A stretch of 41,621 nt of DNA. Origin: Bacteroidota bacterium. GTDB taxonomy: Bacteria; Bacteroidota; Bacteroidia; Flavobacteriales; Schleiferiaceae. The stretch is from positions 1-41,621 of the forward strand of contig PZPB01000017.1 in the NCBI GenBank assembly GCA_003045865.1, in the 5' to 3' direction. Shown piece by piece: positions 13,647 to 21,870 of the stretch (the first letter of the stretch is position 1; the number at the start of each line of letters is the position of its first letter). The notes under the pieces were generated by a model. The model was not told the DNA's origin. It made no database searches and was given only the letters and a program-made list of their open reading frames with translations. A program made the translations under genes and the position numbers.

Positions 13647-13679
13647 TTGTTTAACTTTTTATTGAAAGTACCTAAACAA
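13647..13679. promoter_or_regulatory. candidate CarH-type operator, site 1 (upstream of regulator gene)
   Basis: TTGTTTAA (13647-13654) and CTAAACAA (13672-13679) form an inverted repeat with a 17-base spacer. The same arrangement occurs twice before the sigma-factor gene. The site lies just upstream of a near-consensus -7 box (TAAGTTTA, 13692-13699) and covers the expected -33 region, as expected for autorepression. Assignment to the adjacent MerR regulator is inference. Confidence 0.55.
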
Positions 13680-13717
13680 TATCGTGTAAGCTAAGTTTAT
13701 GCTTATAGAAAGCTACT

Positions 13718-14611
13718 ATGAACTCAAAATATTCCATCAAAGACCTAGAAAAGCTCTCAGGTATTAAAGCCCATACTCTGAGAGCGTGGGAGCAACGCTA
13801 TAACCTTATTGAGCCTCATCGCACCGATACAAATATTCGCTACTATATAGATGATCATCTTAAAAAAATCCTAAATATCGCAGTGCTGGTTAAGAGTGGC
13901 ATGCGTATCAGTAAGGTTGCCGAATTAAGCCCTGAAGAAATCCGCTCAGCCGTTATTGACGCTGGCCGCTATCAGGGTAATTATGAAAGTCAGATCAACG
14001 CTTTTAAAATTGCAATGATTGATTACGACGAGTATTTGTTTGACAGCGTTTTTAATAAGTGTTTGATACAGTTTGGAACCGATGAAACACTCACCAAAAT
14101 ATTAGGTGAATTTATTCGTCAGATTGGTTTACTGTGGCAAGCTGGTGCTATAAACGTTAGTAATGAGCACTTTATCAGTAGTTTAGTAAAGCAAAAGCTG
14201 TTTGCAATTATTGATCAAACCATGTTGCCACAAACTAAGGATAAGTCGAAAAGTTATGTTTTGTACTTGCCAGCAGATGAGCTTCATGAATTAGGTCTTC
14301 TCTATCTTTATTATTATCTCAAAAAAATCGGTCACCGTGTTATTTATCTCGGTCAATCTGTTCCGATAGATTATTTGAAAGAGGTTTCGGAAAAAACAGA
14401 AGTGGATCAGTTCGTGTCTATTTTCACCACCACCCCTCATTTTGATGAGATAGATCAGTACTTTGAGAAAATCGCAGAGATGTTTGACCAAGATAATTAT
14501 CGCTTTTTCTTAACAGGGATACAATTTGGCAATTACAAAAGCGATAAACTGCCTGAACAAATTGAATTAGCGGCTAATATTGAGCATCTTAAGTCCTTTT
14601 TTGCGACATAA
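13718..14611 (+). CDS. CarH/LitR-like MerR-family B12-binding photoreceptor regulator
   Basis: The 297-residue product has a MerR winged helix (5-70, with TLRAWEQRYNLIEPHR), a helical B12-cap domain (about 90-170) and a Rossmann-like B12-binding domain (about 178-297). The residues that define CarH are present. Trp140 stands nine residues before Glu150-His151 (W-x9-EH), and Glu188-x-His190-x-x-Gly193 (ELHELG) supplies the axial His. CarH proteins bind adenosylcobalamin, form dark tetramers that repress, and fall apart in light. The gene stands directly before an ECF sigma factor, carotenoid genes and a photolyase, which is typical of CarH/LitR loci. It probably controls itself and the sigma promoter through the inverted repeats described here. 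Light response itself is inferred. Confidence 0.85.
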   Translation: MNSKYSIKDLEKLSGIKAHTLRAWEQRYNLIEPHRTDTNIRYYIDDHLKKILNIAVLVKSGMRISKVAELSPEEIRSAVIDAGRYQGNYESQINAFKIAMIDYDEYLFDSVFNKCLIQFGTDETLTKILGEFIRQIGLLWQAGAINVSNEHFISSLVKQKLFAIIDQTMLPQTKDKSKSYVLYLPADELHELGLLYLYYYLKKIGHRVIYLGQSVPIDYLKEVSEKTEVDQFVSIFTTTPHFDEIDQYFEKIAEMFDQDNYRFFLTGIQFGNYKSDKLPEQIELAANIEHLKSFFAT

Positions 14612-14633
14612 GTGTTGTCTATATTACTATTTG

Positions 14634-14643
14634 TTGTTTAAAC
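14634..14643. promoter_or_regulatory. extra TTGTTTAAAC half-site/palindrome
   Basis: TTGTTTAAAC contains the operator half-site and a perfect GTTTAAAC palindrome. It lies just after the regulator's stop and 26 bases before site 2. It has no partner at the 24-25 base spacing, so it may be an accessory site or chance. Confidence 0.3.
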
Positions 14644-14668
14644 AGCGATAAATCAGTCTCTTATGTTT

Positions 14669-14700
14669 TTGTTTAACTGTTTTGGTGTTTTCTTAAACAA
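14669..14700. promoter_or_regulatory. candidate CarH-type operator, site 2 (upstream of sigma gene)
   Basis: TTGTTTAA (14669-14676) and TTAAACAA (14693-14700) are perfect inverted arms with a 16-base spacer. The site ends four bases before the putative -33 box of the sigma-factor promoter. The arms match site 1 and site 3. Confidence 0.6.
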
Positions 14701-14704
14701 AACC

Positions 14705-14736
14705 CTTGTCGGTCGATATGATTTTGTTTAAGTTTG
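14705..14736 (+). promoter_or_regulatory. promoter of the ECF sigma/carotenoid operon
   Basis: CTTG at 14705-14708 (-33) and TAAGTTTG at 14729-14736 (-7, an exact TAnnTTTG) are 20 bases apart, as in Bacteroidota vegetative promoters. The start would fall near 14742, giving a leader of about 30 bases to the ATG at 14773. The box is embedded in operator site 3, so a bound regulator should block it. Confidence 0.6.
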
Positions 14737-14756
14737 GGGTGTTAAAAGTTAAACAT
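14724..14756. promoter_or_regulatory. candidate CarH-type operator, site 3 (over the -7 box)
   Basis: TTGTTTAA (14724-14731) and TTAAACAT (14749-14756) are inverted arms with a 17-base spacer and one mismatch at the last base. The site spans the -7 element and the expected transcription start of the sigma operon, which is a repressor position. Confidence 0.58.
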
Positions 14757-14772
14757 AACAAAACACTCAGTC

Positions 14773-15276
14773 ATGTCTAATTCCGATTTTAATTCTATGA
14801 TTACTAATCACCAAGATTTCTTACATCAACTGGCAATGAAGTTGACGAAGAGTAATGAGGATAGTAATGACTTGATGCAAGAAACTTTATTCAAAGCGAT
14901 AAAGAATAAGGATAAATTTCAAGAAGGTACCAACATTAAGGGTTGGCTATATACCATCATGAAGAATACCTTCATCAATGCATACCGTAAAAAGAAAAAT
15001 CAGAATACATTTGTAGACGAAACGGAAAATAAATATTTCCTTAACATACGTGAAAGCGAGAAGTCGGCAACTACCGATAGTATCGTTGATCACAAATATA
15101 TGATGGAGCAAGTTAATTCGATTGATAAGACTTATCTTGAAACTTTCATGATGTATTACAATGGTTACAAATACGAAGAAATTTCAGAAATATTGGGTAT
15201 ACCCTTAGGTACCGTAAAGAGTCGTATATTTTTAGCACGACGGAAAATGATGGATAAACTTAAAGATTACCGCTAA
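14773..15276 (+). CDS. ECF-type sigma factor (LitS/CarQ-like by context)
   Basis: This 167-residue sigma-70-like factor has region 2 at about 10-80 (DSNDLMQETLFKAIKNKDKF and GWLYTIMKNTFINAYRK) and a region 4 helix-turn-helix near 135-165 (YEEISEILGIPLGTVKSRIF). There is no anti-sigma gene next to it. In several bacteria a CarH/LitR repressor controls an ECF sigma that then switches on carotenoid and photolyase genes, and this position fits that scheme. Here the sigma gene also leads the carotenoid operon, with crtI only 14 bases downstream. The start is ATG 14773, just after the repeat-rich promoter. The promoters it recognises cannot be derived from this window. Confidence 0.9.
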   Translation: MSNSDFNSMITNHQDFLHQLAMKLTKSNEDSNDLMQETLFKAIKNKDKFQEGTNIKGWLYTIMKNTFINAYRKKKNQNTFVDETENKYFLNIRESEKSATTDSIVDHKYMMEQVNSIDKTYLETFMMYYNGYKYEEISEILGIPLGTVKSRIFLARRKMMDKLKDYR

Positions 15277-15290
15277 CAAAGAATTAAACC

Positions 15291-16763
15291 ATGGCCAAAA
15301 AGGCACTAGTAGTGGGAGCAGGTTTTGCTGGTCTCGCTGCGGCAACATCACTAGCGGAGAAAGGTTATAAGGTGACCATTCTAGAAAAGAACAGCCAAGC
15401 AGGCGGAAGAGCAAGAAGCTTTAAGGCACAAGGGTTTGATTTCGATATGGGTCCAAGTTGGTATTGGATGCCCGACGTTTTTGATACGTACTTCGCGAAA
15501 TTCGGAAAGAAAGTAAGCGATTATTACCAATTGGAAAGATTAGACCCTTCTTACCGAGTTTATTTTGGGGAAAAGGATTTTGTGGATTTACCGGCAGGAG
15601 TAGAGGCCTGCGCCCAATTATTCAATCAGATAGAAAAAGGCTCAGGCGATAAGTTGCGAAAATTTATGCGTGAGTCGGCTTATAAATATGAGGTAGGAAT
15701 TAACGACCTGGTATATAAACCTGGACGATCCATCATGGAGTTTGCTGATATCCGTATCGCTAAAGGCTTAATTCAGCTAGATTTACTGAAGTCGATGCGC
15801 AGTTATGTGCACAGTCACTTTAAAAATCCACGACTGAGACAGTTAATGGAATTCCCCGTTTTGTTTTTAGGGGCTACTCCCAAAAATACGCCAGCCCTTT
15901 ATTCGTTAATGAATTATGCAGATGTTGATGGCGGTACTTGGTTTCCAAAGGGTGGTATGCATAAAATTGTTGAAGCTATGGTTTCTTTGGCGGAAGAGAA
16001 AGGAGTAGAAATCAAGCTGAATCACGAAGTCTTAGAACTTAAGTATAGTGGAAAGAACATAACTGGCCTTCTAACTTCTGAAGGAGATTTTCATGCTGAT
16101 GTTATTATAGCAGCGGGAGACTACAATCATTTCGAACAAAAGATATTACCTGCGCATCTACGACAGTACAGCCCAGAGTATTGGGAAAAGCGCGCTATGG
16201 CTCCATCGAGCTTATTGTTTTACATGGGTGTAGATAAGCCCGTAGAGGGCCTTTTGCATCATACCTTGTTTTTTGATGAGGATTTTGATCAACACGCGGA
16301 AGAAATTTATAATAAGCCCCAGTGGCCATCAAAACCTTTATTTTACGCATCGGCTTCATCTAAAACCGATCCGAGTTTAGCTCCGGAAGGTAAAGAAAAT
16401 TTATTTTTACTAATGCCAGTAGCTCCGCATCTTAATGATAATGAGAAAAATAGAGAGCGTTATTACGATGTTATGATGGAGCGTTTAGAACGTTTAACGG
16501 GAGGTTCGGTAAGAAGTGACGTTTCCTACAAACAGTCTTATGCACACAGCAATTTTATAGAAGATTATCACGCTTTTAAAGGTAATGCCTACGGGTTGGC
16601 GAACACTTTAAGGCAAACAGCGATATTAAAACCGGCCATGAAAAGTAAAAAGGTTGAGAACCTTTATTACACTGGTCAGTTAACTACTCCAGGTCCAGGC
16701 GTTCCACCTTCCCTTATTTCTGGAATGGTGGTGGCTGACGAAATAGAAAAAGATTTTAAATAG
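15291..16763 (+). CDS. crtI: phytoene desaturase (carotenoid)
   Basis: This 490-residue FAD enzyme has an N-terminal dinucleotide fold (VVGAGFAGLAAATSLAEKG, then GGRARSF) and the CrtI C-terminal signature ending YYTGQLTTPGPGVPPSLISG. CrtI-type desaturases introduce double bonds into phytoene at the membrane to give red or yellow carotenes. The length is normal. It is followed 8 bases later by crtB, so the pair can convert geranylgeranyl diphosphate to a desaturated carotene. No lycopene cyclase, hydroxylase or ketolase is in this stretch, so the final pigment cannot be told. Its nearest relatives include other carotenoid oxidoreductases, so the exact number of desaturations is uncertain. Confidence 0.94.
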   Translation: MAKKALVVGAGFAGLAAATSLAEKGYKVTILEKNSQAGGRARSFKAQGFDFDMGPSWYWMPDVFDTYFAKFGKKVSDYYQLERLDPSYRVYFGEKDFVDLPAGVEACAQLFNQIEKGSGDKLRKFMRESAYKYEVGINDLVYKPGRSIMEFADIRIAKGLIQLDLLKSMRSYVHSHFKNPRLRQLMEFPVLFLGATPKNTPALYSLMNYADVDGGTWFPKGGMHKIVEAMVSLAEEKGVEIKLNHEVLELKYSGKNITGLLTSEGDFHADVIIAAGDYNHFEQKILPAHLRQYSPEYWEKRAMAPSSLLFYMGVDKPVEGLLHHTLFFDEDFDQHAEEIYNKPQWPSKPLFYASASSKTDPSLAPEGKENLFLLMPVAPHLNDNEKNRERYYDVMMERLERLTGGSVRSDVSYKQSYAHSNFIEDYHAFKGNAYGLANTLRQTAILKPAMKSKKVENLYYTGQLTTPGPGVPPSLISGMVVADEIEKDFK

Positions 16764-16771
16764 TAATTTGT

Positions 16772-17611
16772 ATGAAAGAGCTTTTTGATATGGTGTCGTA
16801 TCAGACCAGTGCCATCGTTACTAAAAAATATAGTACTTCTTTTTCTCTAGGAATTTTATTTCTGGACCGTATGCTGCATAAGCACATTTATGCACTTTAT
16901 GGCTTTGTGCGTTTTGCTGATGAGATAGTAGACACGTTTCACGATTTCCCCAAAGCCGAATTACTTGCAGATTTTAAAAAGCAAACATACAAGGCCATTA
17001 AGGATGGCATTAGCCTAAACCCTATTCTGAATTCTTTCCAACATACGGTAAATGAATTTAATATTGATTTAGATTTGATCGAAACCTTCTTAAAGTCAAT
17101 GGAAATGGACCTTGAGCCAGTGGACTCTTTTGATGATTCGAAATACGAAGAATATATTCTTGGCTCGGCTGAGGTAGTGGGATTGATGTGTTTAAAGGTC
17201 TTCTGTTATGGCGATGAAGAGCAATATGAAAAATTGCATTGGAATGCTATGAAATTAGGATCGGCTTTTCAGAAAATAAATTTCTTACGAGATCTCAATG
17301 CAGATTACCATCAATTAGGTAGAGTTTATTTTCCGGGCGTAAACATGGATGTTTTTAATGATCAGGTAAAAGCGGAAATTGAGGCAGATATCGATCTAGA
17401 TTTCAAAGCTGGTTATGAAGGTATTTTAGGATTACCGAAAAAGGCTCGCTTTGGGGTATATATTGCTTATGTATATTATTTTGCGTTGTTCCGTAAAATA
17501 AAAGCTACTTCGAGCACAGAAATTCTTAGCCGAAGAGTTCGCATTCCAAATCACAATAAATACAGCTTATTATTAAGCTCTTATTTAAGACATAGTTTTA
17601 ATATACTTTAA
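16772..17611 (+). CDS. crtB: phytoene synthase (squalene/phytoene synthase family)
   Basis: The 279-residue protein carries the two Asp-rich diphosphate-binding motifs of the family: DEIVD within YGFVRFADEIVDTF, and RDLNAD within FQKINFLRDLNADYHQLGRVYFP. Phytoene synthase joins two geranylgeranyl diphosphates head to head. It is flanked by crtI (8-base gap) and idi (5-base gap), which makes the carotenoid role near certain over a squalene role. The length is typical of Flavobacteriia. No export signal or membrane segment is apparent, so it should be a peripheral cytoplasmic enzyme. Confidence 0.95.
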   Translation: MKELFDMVSYQTSAIVTKKYSTSFSLGILFLDRMLHKHIYALYGFVRFADEIVDTFHDFPKAELLADFKKQTYKAIKDGISLNPILNSFQHTVNEFNIDLDLIETFLKSMEMDLEPVDSFDDSKYEEYILGSAEVVGLMCLKVFCYGDEEQYEKLHWNAMKLGSAFQKINFLRDLNADYHQLGRVYFPGVNMDVFNDQVKAEIEADIDLDFKAGYEGILGLPKKARFGVYIAYVYYFALFRKIKATSSTEILSRRVRIPNHNKYSLLLSSYLRHSFNIL

Positions 17612-17616
17612 TAAAT

Positions 17617-18132
17617 ATGGCAGAAAATGTTATCCTAGTTGACGAGCATGACAATGCTTTGGGACTGATGGAGAAAATGGAAGCCCACCGCAAAGGTCTT
17701 TTGCATCGTGCCTTTTCCGTTTTTGTGCTTAATGAAAAAGGCGAGCTGATGTTGCAGCAAAGAGCCGTACACAAGTACCATTCTGGTAAATTATGGACCA
17801 ACACCTGTTGTTCACATCCGCGTGATGGGGAATCGGCAGAACAAGCCGCCCATAGACGTTTAGTGGAGGAAATGGGTTTTGACTGTGAAATAGAAAAATC
17901 ATTAGAATTTGTTTATCGTGCCGAGTTAGACTTAGGCATGATTGAGCATGAATATGATCATCTTTTTATTGGTCGCTATAATGGCATCCCGGCCATAAAC
18001 CCAGAAGAGGTGATGGCTTGGAAGTGGATGGATATCGATTTGCTAAGTGAGGATATTGCCGCTCATCCAGAGAATTATACCGAATGGTTTAAGATTATCT
18101 ATCAGTCCTTTTTAGCAAAGGTAAAAGCTTAA
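17617..18132 (+). CDS. idi: isopentenyl-diphosphate delta-isomerase, type I
   Basis: This 171-residue Nudix-fold enzyme interconverts isopentenyl and dimethylallyl diphosphate. The catalytic Cys lies in NTCCSHP (Cys64/65) and the metal/catalytic Glu residues lie in GMIEHEYDH (Glu110/112). A Nudix-like stretch, AAHRRLVEEMGF, is also clear. An isomerase is essential in organisms using the mevalonate route, and HMG-CoA reductase is encoded in the same window. Its place after crtB suggests that isoprenoid supply is raised together with carotenoid synthesis. It is 2 bases before the pterin synthase gene. Confidence 0.95.
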   Translation: MAENVILVDEHDNALGLMEKMEAHRKGLLHRAFSVFVLNEKGELMLQQRAVHKYHSGKLWTNTCCSHPRDGESAEQAAHRRLVEEMGFDCEIEKSLEFVYRAELDLGMIEHEYDHLFIGRYNGIPAINPEEVMAWKWMDIDLLSEDIAAHPENYTEWFKIIYQSFLAKVKA

Positions 18133-18134
18133 TA

Positions 18135-18542
18135 ATGAAAGTTACCGTAAGCCGAAAGGCACATTTTAACGCGGCTCACCGCCTGTTTAATCCCGCCTGG
18201 ACGGCAGAGAAGAACGAAGAGGTTTTTGGGAAATGCAACAATCCCGAGTTTCATGGTCACAATTACGAACTAATTGTTAGTGTGAAAGGCGAAATAGATT
18301 CCAGAACAGGATATGTGATGGATATGAAAGTGCTGAAAGACTTAATTAAGGATAAGATTGAAGATCGCTTTGATCATAAAAATCTCAATACTCAAACCGA
18401 GGAGTTTAAAAGTTTAAATCCTACGGCAGAAAATATCGCCGTAGTAATATTCGATTTACTTCGCCCACATTTAAATGAAACTTTAGATTTAAAAATCACG
18501 CTTTATGAAACTCCGAGAAACTACGTTGAATATGAAGGTTAA
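18135..18542 (+). CDS. 6-pyruvoyl-tetrahydropterin synthase (PTPS-II-like)
   Basis: The 135-residue T-fold enzyme has zinc ligands His15, His40 and His42. Its catalytic Cys34 is spaced as C-x5-HGHNY (GKCNNPEFHGHNY). This is the spacing of animal PTPS, which makes 6-pyruvoyl-tetrahydropterin from dihydroneopterin triphosphate. QueD proteins of queuosine synthesis have C-x3-HGH instead. The adjacent folE would supply the substrate, so the pair can make a tetrahydropterin. The ATG lies 2 bases after the idi stop, and the end overlaps the folE start. A QueD-like function cannot be excluded by motif alone, but no queC, queE or queF is nearby. Confidence 0.85.
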   Translation: MKVTVSRKAHFNAAHRLFNPAWTAEKNEEVFGKCNNPEFHGHNYELIVSVKGEIDSRTGYVMDMKVLKDLIKDKIEDRFDHKNLNTQTEEFKSLNPTAENIAVVIFDLLRPHLNETLDLKITLYETPRNYVEYEG

Positions 18543-19230
18543 TGGATTGGCAGAAAAGGCTTTGGAAAAGGGCTCGGATGAAATTTGGCGAGAACTAAGT
18601 GCCATTGGTGATGATCACCAGAGTGCTAATTTGGAAACTCCAATGAGAGACGGGGCCTTCGATATTAGTGCCGACGAAAAAATAGATTTAATTGAGGAGA
18701 AGTTCGCCGACATACTTACGATTCTCGGTATGGACCTGCAAGACGATAGCCTAAGAGGTACGCCACGTAGAGTGGCTAAAATGTACGTCAATGAAATCTT
18801 TCAGGGTTTAAACCCAGAAAATAAGCCTACCGCAAAATTATTTGACAATAAGTACCGCTACAATCAAATGTTGGTGGAAAAAAACATCAATGTGCATTCT
18901 TATTGTGAGCACCATTTGGTACCCATTCTGGGGAAAGCGCATGTAGCTTATATTTCTAGTGGTAAGGTAATTGGCTTAAGTAAAATCAATCGTATCGTGC
19001 GTTATTTTGCCAAGCGTCCGCAAGTACAAGAGCGTTTAACCGAGCAGATTGCTGCCGAATTAAAGAGAGTTCTAGAAACTGAACACGTGGCGGTTATTAT
19101 AGATGCCGAACACATGTGTGTGGCTACCCGTGGTATAGAAGATACAGGTTCTAGCACCATAACTACTCATTATTCGGGTAAGTTTTTGGAAGAATCGTAT
19201 CGCAATGAATATTTAAAACATATATCTTAA
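18532..19230 (+). CDS. folE: GTP cyclohydrolase I
   Basis: From ATG 18532 this is a 232-residue protein. The zinc ligands Cys125 and His128 lie in SYCEHHLVP and Cys196 in EHMCVATRG, with the typical GKAHVAYI and RPQVQERLT stretches. It opens GTP to 7,8-dihydroneopterin triphosphate, the first step of folate and tetrahydrobiopterin synthesis. A longer start at 18505 would lie further inside the PTPS gene; 18532 overlaps it by 11 bases. It sits between PTPS and an SDR, the same three activities (cyclohydrolase, PTPS, SDR reductase) that make tetrahydrobiopterin in animals. folE genes are also reported in light-induced CarH/LitR regulons. The genome may hold a second folE for folate. Confidence 0.95.
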   Translation: MKVNGLAEKALEKGSDEIWRELSAIGDDHQSANLETPMRDGAFDISADEKIDLIEEKFADILTILGMDLQDDSLRGTPRRVAKMYVNEIFQGLNPENKPTAKLFDNKYRYNQMLVEKNINVHSYCEHHLVPILGKAHVAYISSGKVIGLSKINRIVRYFAKRPQVQERLTEQIAAELKRVLETEHVAVIIDAEHMCVATRGIEDTGSSTITTHYSGKFLEESYRNEYLKHIS

Positions 19231-19236
19231 GATTTT

Positions 19237-19932
19237 ATGAATTACTTAGTTGTTGGTGGTGGAAGTGGAATAGGAGAAAAAGTAGTTGAAAATCTTGCCT
19301 TAGCAGGACATCAGGTTTATGCAGCAAGCCGAAACATAATGGAGGCAAATCTGCCCCCGAGCGCAGAGCCGATTAAATTTGATGTTAGTTTGGATGAGAC
19401 CATAGAAGGTTTGCCAGATGTTTTGGACGGCTTGGTTTATTGTCCGGGTTCTATTAGTTTAAAGCCTTTTCATCGTATAAAGCCCGCCGATTTTCAAGCC
19501 GAATGGGAGCTTAATTTTTTAGGAGCGGTAAAAGTAACACAGCAGGTTTTAGATCTTTTAAAGAAAAGTGAAAACCCAAGTGTTGTGTACTTTAGTACTG
19601 TAGCCGTGCAATTAGGTTTACCTTTTCACAGCTCAATAAGTGGAGCCAAGGGAGCCATTGAAGGTTTAACTAGAAGTTTGGCAGCGGAATATGCGCCAAA
19701 GATTCGCTTTAATGCGATTGCCCCTTCTTTAACCGACACACCCTTAGCTGCGAATTTACTATCTAACGATAAGAAGCGTGAAGCGAATGCGGAACGCAAT
19801 CCTCTAAAATTGATTGGTCAAGCTCAGGATATTGCCAATATGGTAACCTTCTTGTTAGGTAAAGATTCTCGTTGGGTAACAGGTCAAGTGATGGCTGTTG
19901 ACGGCGGGATGGGGGCAATCAAGCCAATGTAA
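19237..19932 (+). CDS. short-chain dehydrogenase/reductase lacking the catalytic Tyr
   Basis: This 231-residue Rossmann protein has the NAD(P) loop VVGGGSGIGEK, a structural/catalytic Asn93 (LNFLGAV), Ser120 (VVYFST) and Lys138. The active-site motif YxxxK is changed: the residue four before Lys138 is Ile134, in HSSISGAKGAIEG. The C-terminal SDR signatures (IAPSLTDTPLA, VTGQVMAVDGG) are intact, so the gene is not decayed. By position it could be the sepiapterin-reductase-like step of pterin synthesis. The missing Tyr argues either for another proton donor or for a binding role. I recall SDRs of this kind beside photolyase genes in other bacteria, but did not check. Confidence 0.85.
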   Translation: MNYLVVGGGSGIGEKVVENLALAGHQVYAASRNIMEANLPPSAEPIKFDVSLDETIEGLPDVLDGLVYCPGSISLKPFHRIKPADFQAEWELNFLGAVKVTQQVLDLLKKSENPSVVYFSTVAVQLGLPFHSSISGAKGAIEGLTRSLAAEYAPKIRFNAIAPSLTDTPLAANLLSNDKKREANAERNPLKLIGQAQDIANMVTFLLGKDSRWVTGQVMAVDGGMGAIKPM

Positions 19933-19933
19933 A

Positions 19934-20569
19934 ATGGAAGAGGTTTTTGAGAAATCAGACTTTGCGAAATGGGAGCGCTTTTACCGCGCCGCATTTTTTA
20001 ATAGTTTAGGAGGTTTTAAAAGTCTCAATTTACTAGCTTCTCAAAATGCCGAGGGAGAACATAATCTCGGTCTATTTTTTTCGGTTTCACATATTGGTGC
20101 CAACGAGGCTCTTTTGGGATTGATTTTTCGTCCCCACACCGTTCCTCGTCATAGTCTCGAAAATTTACGCGCCGGATATGCCACTTTAAATGCAGTCCAT
20201 CCTGATATTTTAGCGCAAGCGCATCAGGCTTCGGCTAATTACCCGGCGGAAGAATCGGAGTTTGAAGCAACAGGCTTAAGTCCCGAATTTCGAGATTTCC
20301 CAGCTCCTTATGTAGCCGAAAGTAAAATAAAAATGGGTATAAAATATCGTGAAGAGCATTTAATTAAAGCGAATAATACCATTTTAGTGGTAGCTTCTAT
20401 CGAGAAGGTAATTCTTGAGAAAGGACTCATCTTAAAAGATGGTTTAATTGATCATAGTTTAGCAAATAGTGTAGCTGTAAATGGTTTGGATTCGTATTAT
20501 ACCGCAGAGCGTTTAAAACGTTTTTCTTATCCGCGTCCCAATGAAAATATTAGCGAAAATCCATGGTAA
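19934..20569 (+). CDS. flavin reductase-like (FMN-binding split-barrel) protein
   Basis: From ATG 19934 the product has 211 residues. An N-terminal extension in frame inside the SDR gene is not needed, because ATG 19934 follows the SDR stop by one base. The segments SLGGFKSLNLLAS, FFSVSHIGANEALLGLIFRP, then TLNAV and ESKIKMGIKYRE fit the flavin reductase-like/flavoredoxin fold, which binds FMN or FAD without covalent linkage. In this operon it could keep flavin reduced for the photolyase, or reduce a pterin; both are inference. It ends 7 bases inside the photolyase gene, a strong sign of coupling. Confidence 0.75.
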   Translation: MEEVFEKSDFAKWERFYRAAFFNSLGGFKSLNLLASQNAEGEHNLGLFFSVSHIGANEALLGLIFRPHTVPRHSLENLRAGYATLNAVHPDILAQAHQASANYPAEESEFEATGLSPEFRDFPAPYVAESKIKMGIKYREEHLIKANNTILVVASIEKVILEKGLILKDGLIDHSLANSVAVNGLDSYYTAERLKRFSYPRPNENISENPW

Positions 20570-21870
20570 AGCAAGAGCTTAGCATTTTTTGGTTCCGTCG
20601 CGATTTGCGTTTGGAAGATAATCATGGTCTTCACAAAGCTCTGACTGCCGGAGACAAGGTTTTAGGTCTCTTTATTTTTGACAAAGAGATATTAGATAAG
20701 CTTCCCGCCAAGGATGCTAGAGTGCAATTTATCCATCAGGAACTTTTAAAAATTAAAGCAGATCTAGAGGAAATAGGTTCTTCCTTACTGGTACGCTATG
20801 GTAAGGTGGATGAAGTTTGGCAGGATCTGCGATCTGAGTTTACAATTACATCGGTATTCGCCAATCGCGATTACGAATCCTACGCCATTGCGCGCGATAA
20901 GAGGATTTATTACTTTCTAGAAGAACAGGGAATCCCTTTTAAGGCTTACAAAGATCACGTGATTTTTGAGAAAAGCGAGGTAGTAAAGGATGATGGCAAG
21001 CCCTATGTGGTTTACACACCTTACATGAAGCGCTACAAACAATTATTAACGGAGGCGCACTTAAAAGCCCATCTTAGCGAAAGCGAAAAAGAGAATTTTA
21101 TTAAAACGGAAGCCTTGCCTTTTCCCGGTCTAGCCGAGATGGGGTTTCAAAAATTTCCTTTTCAATACCCTGAGAGTGAGTTTCCCACTAAAATTATTCA
21201 GAATTATCACGAGCAACGTGATATTCCCGCTACAAAAGGGACTAGTCGTTTAAGTCTGCATTTGCGCTTCGGTACAATTTCCATTCGGGCCTTGGCAAAA
21301 CATGCCATGGCTGAAAACGATAAATATTTCAACGAGCTCATTTGGCGTGACTTCTACCAAAGTATAATTTATCATTTTCCGCATTCTGAAAAAGAAAGCT
21401 TTCGCCGAGAGTATGATGCGATAGAGTGGGAGAATAATAGCGATCATTTTGAAAAATGGTGCGTTGGTCAAACGGGTTATCCTTTAGTGGATGCGGGTAT
21501 GCGCGAATTAAATGAAACTGGTTTTATGCACAATAGAGTGCGCATGGTGGTGGCTAGTTTTTTAACCAAACATCTACTAATTGATTGGCGCTGGGGTGAA
21601 AATTATTTTGCCGAAAAGCTTTTAGATTATGAACTGGCCAGCAATGTAGGCGGTTGGCAATGGGCGGCTGGCAGTGGAGTAGATGCAGCTCCTTACTTCC
21701 GGGTATTCAATCCTAGCTTACAAATGGACAAGTTTGACCCTGAAAAGCGTTACATAAAAAAATGGGTTCCAGAATTTGGTACGAGCCAATATCCGAAACC
21801 CATTGTAGATCATAAAGAAGCGCGTTTACGAGCTATTGCCCGCTATAAGCAAACTTTAAAACCGGATTAA
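20563..21870 (+). CDS. phr: class I deoxyribodipyrimidine photolyase (CPD photolyase)
   Basis: The 435-residue product begins with the antenna-domain signature IFWFRRDLRLEDNHGL. It carries the FAD-binding helices GTSRLSLHLRFGTIS, ELIWRDFYQ, TGYPLVDAGMREL, HNRVRMVVASFL and ASNVGGWQWAAGSGVDAAPYFR. Conserved Trp residues for electron transfer are present. Class I photolyases split UV-made cyclobutane pyrimidine dimers using FADH- and a light-harvesting cofactor, often a folate or deazaflavin. It is the last gene of the light-response operon, next to pterin and flavin genes that could serve its cofactors. The final TTAA contains the stop codons of both this gene and the convergent mannose guanylyltransferase gene. 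Confidence 0.95.
   Translation: MVKQELSIFWFRRDLRLEDNHGLHKALTAGDKVLGLFIFDKEILDKLPAKDARVQFIHQELLKIKADLEEIGSSLLVRYGKVDEVWQDLRSEFTITSVFANRDYESYAIARDKRIYYFLEEQGIPFKAYKDHVIFEKSEVVKDDGKPYVVYTPYMKRYKQLLTEAHLKAHLSESEKENFIKTEALPFPGLAEMGFQKFPFQYPESEFPTKIIQNYHEQRDIPATKGTSRLSLHLRFGTISIRALAKHAMAENDKYFNELIWRDFYQSIIYHFPHSEKESFRREYDAIEWENNSDHFEKWCVGQTGYPLVDAGMRELNETGFMHNRVRMVVASFLTKHLLIDWRWGENYFAEKLLDYELASNVGGWQWAAGSGVDAAPYFRVFNPSLQMDKFDPEKRYIKKWVPEFGTSQYPKPIVDHKEARLRAIARYKQTLKPD

Follow-up and report, generated by a model that had tools for sequence, protein, structure and literature searches.

The question raised by this locus is which factor acts on a long inverted repeat that occurs three times around a putative CarH/LitR-type regulator gene and an adjoining carotenoid operon in a bacterium of the Schleiferiaceae (Bacteroidota). 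Hereafter, the window denotes the whole stretch of 41,621 nucleotides that was analysed. The first-pass annotation had located three repeats with an arm-to-arm distance of 24-25 bases, and these coordinates, arms and distances proved to be correct, with all three sites, here called O1 to O3, confirmed in the sequence (Table 1). The single mismatch of O1 and that of O3 are both in the right arm. When spacings from 6 to 26 were searched, O1, O2 and O3 were the sole sites in the window (41.6 kb) with one mismatch or less, versus a chance expectation of 0.02 sites per window on average and 1 at most in 150 first-order Markov simulations. For the lone half-site upstream of O2, no partner at N16/17 was found. 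The genomes concerned are AT-rich, and runs of A or T lie beside the arms, as would be expected if these were chance AT-rich repeats, but this explanation has a negligible probability, as it is refuted by reversed-pattern, spacing and shuffle controls and by the Markov simulations. The repeats were conserved and rare, rather than unconserved or present in many random copies, two of the outcomes that had been named as speaking against the proposal.

Table 1. Coordinates of operators, promoter elements and genes at the locus, numbered from the first nucleotide of the window.
Feature	Position	Strand	Sequence or basis	Remark
Operator O1	13647-13679	.	TTGTTTAA-N17-CTAAACAA, 33 bp, 1 mismatch	Upstream of regulator gene
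Putative regulator -7 box	13692-13699	+	TAAGTTTA; predicted from sequence, Bacteroidota consensus	
CarH/LitR-type regulator	13718-14611	+	MerR DNA-binding, B12-binding_2 four-helix and B12-binding Rossmann-like domains (Pfam)	
Lone half-site	14634-14645	.	TTGTTTAAACAG (TTGTTTAA at 14634-14641, then ACAG)	Upstream of O2
Operator O2	14669-14700	.	TTGTTTAA-N16-TTAAACAA, perfect	Distal member of conserved tandem operator pair
Sigma-operon promoter	14706-14736	+	-33 TTG 14706-14708, N20, -7 TAAGTTTG 14729-14736	Consensus from PMC3587595
Operator O3	14724-14756	.	TTGTTTAA-N17-TTAAACAT, 1 mismatch	Conserved in most orthologous loci
ECF sigma factor	14773-15276	+	Pfam	First gene of predicted light operon
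crtI/crtD-type phytoene desaturase	15291-16763	+	NCBIfam NF058655, 745.6 bits (cut-off 640)	
crtB phytoene synthase	16772-17611	+	Pfam	
idi-like NUDIX (isopentenyl diphosphate isomerase)	17617-18132	+	Pfam NUDIX	Gene name by context
6-pyruvoyl-tetrahydropterin synthase family (PTPS) and GTP cyclohydrolase I (folE) genes	18135-19230	+	Pfam	Overlapping reading frames
Short-chain dehydrogenase (SDR)	19237-19932	+	Pfam	Homologues behind operators in Flavobacteriaceae
Flavin-reductase-like protein	19898-20569	+	40-42% identity to operator-preceded Flavobacteriaceae genes, one of them PF01613	True start may be downstream of 19898
DNA photolyase/cryptochrome	20563-21870	+	NCBIfam photolyase models	Last gene of co-directional run

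Like the B12-dependent photoreceptor repressors of the CarH/LitR type, such as CarH of Thermus thermophilus, Bacillus megaterium and Myxococcus/Cystobacter, the regulator combines a MerR DNA-binding domain with a B12 domain, and contains the Wx9EH motif and the cobalt-ligating histidine. The N-terminal domain (MerR_1, E=5e-16, Pfam) carries the RxWE[RQK]RY recognition helix, of which R22, W24, E25 and R27 were invariant and Y28 was present in 58 of the 59 regulators compared. The adenosyl-contacting Wx9EH motif (W140, E150, H151) was found in 59/59, and in the D/ExHxxG motif, which here reads ExHxxG, E188 and the cobalt ligand H190 were present in 59/59 and G193 in 52/59. Homology to Thermus CarH (5c8d) extended over residues 4-226 (phmmer, E=4.6e-17). 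The score with the NCBIfam CarH equivalog model was 86 bits, below the cut-off of 400, the Pfam Rossmann B12-binding domain remained below its own cut-off, and a single-sequence AlphaFold model was discarded (pLDDT 45). Two features are unlike CarH. The x41-SxT/V-x22-27-GG stretch of the classic B12 motif reads S234xxT237 with one invariant glycine, G267, and no GG, and a glutamine replaces the histidine after the tryptophan, which in Thermus CarH ligates cobalt after photolysis. Given this glutamine, the lit state of the regulator may differ from that of Thermus CarH.

Judged by published criteria (PMC9304148), the incomplete C-terminal B12 motif and the missing histidine could mean that the regulator, although it binds the sites, has lost the ability to sense light or B12, either because it resembles CarA and responds to a redox or other signal, or because it acts with a separate photoreceptor, like the class II LitR proteins, which are effectors of LOV photoreceptors (PMC9758184). 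The resemblance to Myxococcus xanthus CarA extends to the DNA, since CarA is also a MerR/B12-type protein, and its operator, which spans about 55 bp over the -35 box, has been described as containing an inverted repeat. However, CarA is B12-independent and lacks the tryptophan of Wx9EH, whereas the flavobacterial protein keeps it, and an intact Wx9EH motif separates B12-dependent CarH from B12-independent CarA (PMC9304148). Loss of sensing is also doubtful because both Wx9EH and the cobalt-ligating histidine are invariant, and because the targets described below are photoprotection and photoenergy genes. A cobalamin adenosyltransferase gene was present in 7/7 genomes of the genus, thus adenosylcobalamin (AdoCbl) can be made.

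Across genomes, the conserved operator of 32-33 bp reads TTTTGTTTAAY-N14/15-RTTAAACAAAA, and the logo of the 156 unique perfect N16 sites TTTTGTTTAAY-N14-RTTAAACAAAA. No further half-site was visible in the spacer of this logo, thus a division into three 11-bp units (33 = 3 x 11) is unsupported. Spacers of 15, 16, 17 and 18 bases occurred in 2, 156, 26 and 3 of the 187 unique sites, respectively, and only one of 132 sites was intragenic. Some open reading frames start within a site, for example that of the fasciclin gene at position 1580 of locus L001, and this was attributed to over-extension of the reading frame and not to coding overlap. The first-pass annotation held that the motif differs from known CarH operators, which is true for the arrangement but not for the half-site. 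Every arm contains TAAACA, conserved across sites and matching the published CarH half-site TnnACA (PMC9304148), and TTAAACAA is a perfect TnnACA half-site. The half-sites form an inverted pair with N16/17, 24-25 bp apart, whereas CarH operators consist of tandem 11-bp direct repeats. Since the design of CarH operators has been described as plastic (PMC9304148), we treated this geometry as a variant feature and not as one that defines the family.

Both a genome scan for the regulon and a comparison of orthologous promoters, which had been proposed as checks, showed that the sites track the regulator and adjoin it in many families and also in other orders. Among 196 Flavobacteriales genomes, the 90 with the regulator contained 111 perfect sites versus 8 for the reversed pattern used as control, and the 106 without it contained 6 versus 5 (Fisher p 7e-15 for the link), while among 200 Flavobacteriaceae genomes the numbers were 311 versus 14 in the 162 with the regulator and 7 versus 0 in the 38 without it (p 5e-18), the two samples sharing some genomes and the tests ignoring relatedness. 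The latter 7 sites are located in three incomplete genomes (73-87% complete), and 29 of the regulator-containing Flavobacteriaceae genomes had no perfect site. Within the proteorhodopsin-bearing genomes the link between site and regulator was not significant (27/37 versus 4/9, p 0.13). When up to 2 mismatches were allowed, a site was found upstream of the regulator gene in 18 and downstream in 41 of 58 orthologous loci, versus 0 for the control in either case. Sites again adjoined the regulator in five genomes from other orders of the Bacteroidia, and none was seen in roughly 150 genomes from other classes of the phylum. One whole family of the order, f6 (G005 and 27 others), contained no regulator in any of its 28 genomes and no sites above the control level (1 versus 3). 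If f6 corresponds to the Weeksellaceae, the carotenoids of Chryseobacterium lacus, which are light-induced (PMC7064467), must depend on another sensor.

The position of the sites relative to the promoters was assessed with the Bacteroidota consensus TTG...TAnnTTTG (PMC3587595). The sigma-operon promoter is well formed, and the placement described in the first-pass annotation holds here: 5 bp lie between the end of O2 and the -33 TTG, and O3 covers the -7 box TAAGTTTG together with the expected transcription start, its centre being 55.5 bp from that of O2. The placement of O1 over the -33 region of the regulator promoter is weaker, since O1 does cover the expected position but a TTG at normal spacing from the putative -7 box was absent, the nearest gap being 27. 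Of the -7 box that both promoters were said to share, the sigma copy TAAGTTTG is part of a well-formed promoter, and the regulator copy TAAGTTTA is plausible. A tandem operator pair with 53-56 bp between centres was found in most sigma promoters of the family to which the window belongs (46 in one genus), and as this distance is about five helical turns, it suggests cooperation between the paired operators. Sites at promoters, and especially O2, which lies just upstream of -33 in a possible activator position, might also be activator sites or promoter elements for the ECF sigma factor instead of repressor operators. This is very unlikely, because a true inverted repeat with fixed spacing lies over the -7 box of housekeeping-type promoters, and because the operator is present at the crtI promoters of two loci in which regulator and crtI are not separated by a sigma gene. 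Classical MerR regulators also place a winged-helix DNA-binding domain on an inverted repeat in the promoter. Their sites occupy the stretch from -35 to -10, have more closely spaced arms and serve activation through DNA distortion, whereas the flavobacterial sites have 16-17 bp between their arms and extend over -7.

Downstream of O3, the genes from sigma factor to photolyase share one strand, and neighbours are either fewer than 20 bases apart or overlap slightly, thus this run is very likely a single transcript. The pterin genes within this carotenoid and photolyase operon perhaps supply a pterin/folate antenna for the photolyase; folE is also found behind an operator in another genome (G128). 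One further perfect copy in the genome that contains the window (C51:44630-44661) lies between a fasciclin lipoprotein gene, which it closely precedes, and a ketoacyl-ACP synthase III gene. At two loci of genus-mates, this fasciclin gene is likewise accompanied by a perfect copy. With 2 mismatches allowed, the search of this genome returned 10 sites versus 6 for the control, which is noise level, and no extra targets are claimed. According to Pfam, the 124 site-adjoining proteins, which include both flanks of divergent sites and thus some neighbours that are not targets, comprised fasciclin (25), crtI-like desaturase (14), TetR (5), methionine sulfoxide reductase (4), SDR (4), flavin reductase (4), photolyase (3), proteorhodopsin (3) and blh (2) proteins, and others. 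Sites also precede the ECF sigma gene and the regulator gene itself. In the order as a whole, fasciclin genes are the most frequent predicted targets.

TetR-type regulator genes (PF17931) repeatedly carry the operator in Flavobacteriaceae (four loci), two of them divergent from an NAD-dependent epimerase (DUF1731) gene. Their products may form a second regulatory layer or be rival binders. TetR dimers bind inverted repeats, and with TetR_C_23 proteins making up 5 of the 124 counted neighbours, the palindrome could be the operator of such a factor, with the CarH-like gene as merely one of its targets. We regard this as improbable, since the sigma-crt run in the window contains no TetR gene, the presence of sites follows the CarH-like regulator, the CarH half-site TnnACA is part of the arm, and 16 bp between the arms would be a long gap for a TetR dimer.

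The proteorhodopsin genes provided a test set, as these loci were chosen independently of the motif. In the 200 Flavobacteriaceae genomes, 31 of 46 proteorhodopsin upstream regions had a site with up to 2 mismatches, versus 0 for the control, and only the 16-base spacer stood out. The same threshold gave 70 of 79 promoters, all N16, versus 0/79 for the control, in a set of named loci from Polaribacter, Winogradskyella, Robiginitalea, Nonlabens, Tenacibaculum, Aquimarina, Kordia, Leeuwenhoekiella nanhaiensis and others. A TAnnTTT[GA] box begins at operator offset 15 in 62 of 92 proteorhodopsin promoters. In the family of the window, 16/46 promoters had a site with up to 2 mismatches (control 0). 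The proteorhodopsin gene of the window genome itself (C35:45226-45897) has degenerate sites only, N15 and N14 with 2 mismatches each, and the site of a genus-mate (G033) is perfect, with N17. Because the link is partial in this family, we claim proteorhodopsin control mainly for the Flavobacteriaceae. Two genomes encode a second, divergent rhodopsin with 24-25% identity to the proteorhodopsin query (G412:C10:254276-254998 and G427:C3:1036122-1036841); the promoters of these genes lack the operator, and the proteorhodopsin promoters of the same genomes have it. Light induces the rhodopsin genes of Nonlabens sp. YIK11 (PMC4831467), and a perfect operator is found at the proteorhodopsin gene of Nonlabens tegetincola, which together give independent support for the mechanism proposed below. 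In Dokdonia PRO95, proteorhodopsin expression was reported to be constitutive, and the same paper called for more work on how proteorhodopsin expression is regulated (PMC3587595).

Taken together, we consider it likely that the repeats are dark-repressor operators of the adjacent CarH/LitR-type B12 photoreceptor, where the conservation, fixed spacing, promoter position and target genes of the operator and its co-occurrence with the regulator are established by computation, and binding, repression, dependence on AdoCbl and release by light are inferred. Repression by the adjacent CarH-like protein, as proposed in the first-pass annotation, is supported by co-occurrence, adjacency, overlap with -7 and the light-related regulon, and at the sequence level the predicted binding fits every available test. 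By analogy with CarH biochemistry, the AdoCbl-loaded regulator would bind in the dark, as a tetramer or a pair of dimers, to two TnnACA half-sites in inverted orientation at a distance of 24-25 bp, where it would cover the -7 box or the -33 edge and block the housekeeping RNA polymerase. Cooperative binding would be possible at the sigma promoter, where two operators lie 53-56 bp apart. Light would break the Co-C bond, or lack of B12 would leave the protein without cofactor, and the oligomer would disassemble, so that the sigma-crtI-crtB-idi-pterin-SDR-flavin reductase-photolyase operon, the regulator and the fasciclin gene would be expressed. In Flavobacteriaceae, the same switch would act on proteorhodopsin, blh, photolyase, methionine sulfoxide reductase, crtI and fasciclin genes. 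With somewhat less assurance, we favour the view that in most proteorhodopsin-bearing Flavobacteriaceae the B12 photoreceptor directly represses proteorhodopsin and blh, the gene for making its retinal, in the dark through the inverted CarH operator, and that in the class Bacteroidia a single light regulon, gated by B12, unites light harvesting with carotenoids, photorepair and a fasciclin surface protein.

As with CarH/LitR, the regulator appears to be autoregulated, adjoins carotenoid genes and has operators over promoter elements with the half-site TnnACA. Unlike CarH, its predicted regulon reaches proteorhodopsin/blh, fasciclin and msrA. MerR genes that stand before crtI, described as putative crt regulators, have been noted in the proteorhodopsin-bearing flavobacteria Sediminicola sp. 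YIK13 (PMC4732338), Flavobacterium sp. TH167 (PMC5887021) and Nonlabens spongiae (PMC11855829). These genes probably encode the same regulator, and the passages that describe them give no operator, no assignment to B12 or light and no link to proteorhodopsin promoters. In the open-access literature, we found no paper on this operator or one linking such a regulator to proteorhodopsin. The best reading is therefore that the operator geometry and the regulon are new for a CarH-type photoreceptor. A second CarH operator geometry would be useful for structural work and for green-light optogenetic tools. For the flavobacteria themselves, the operator and the candidate B12 photoreceptor offer a testable answer to how they switch on their light-driven proton pump. 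Many flavobacteria take B12 from others, and if the proposed switch is true, the supply of B12 would be tied to both the use of light energy and photoprotection.
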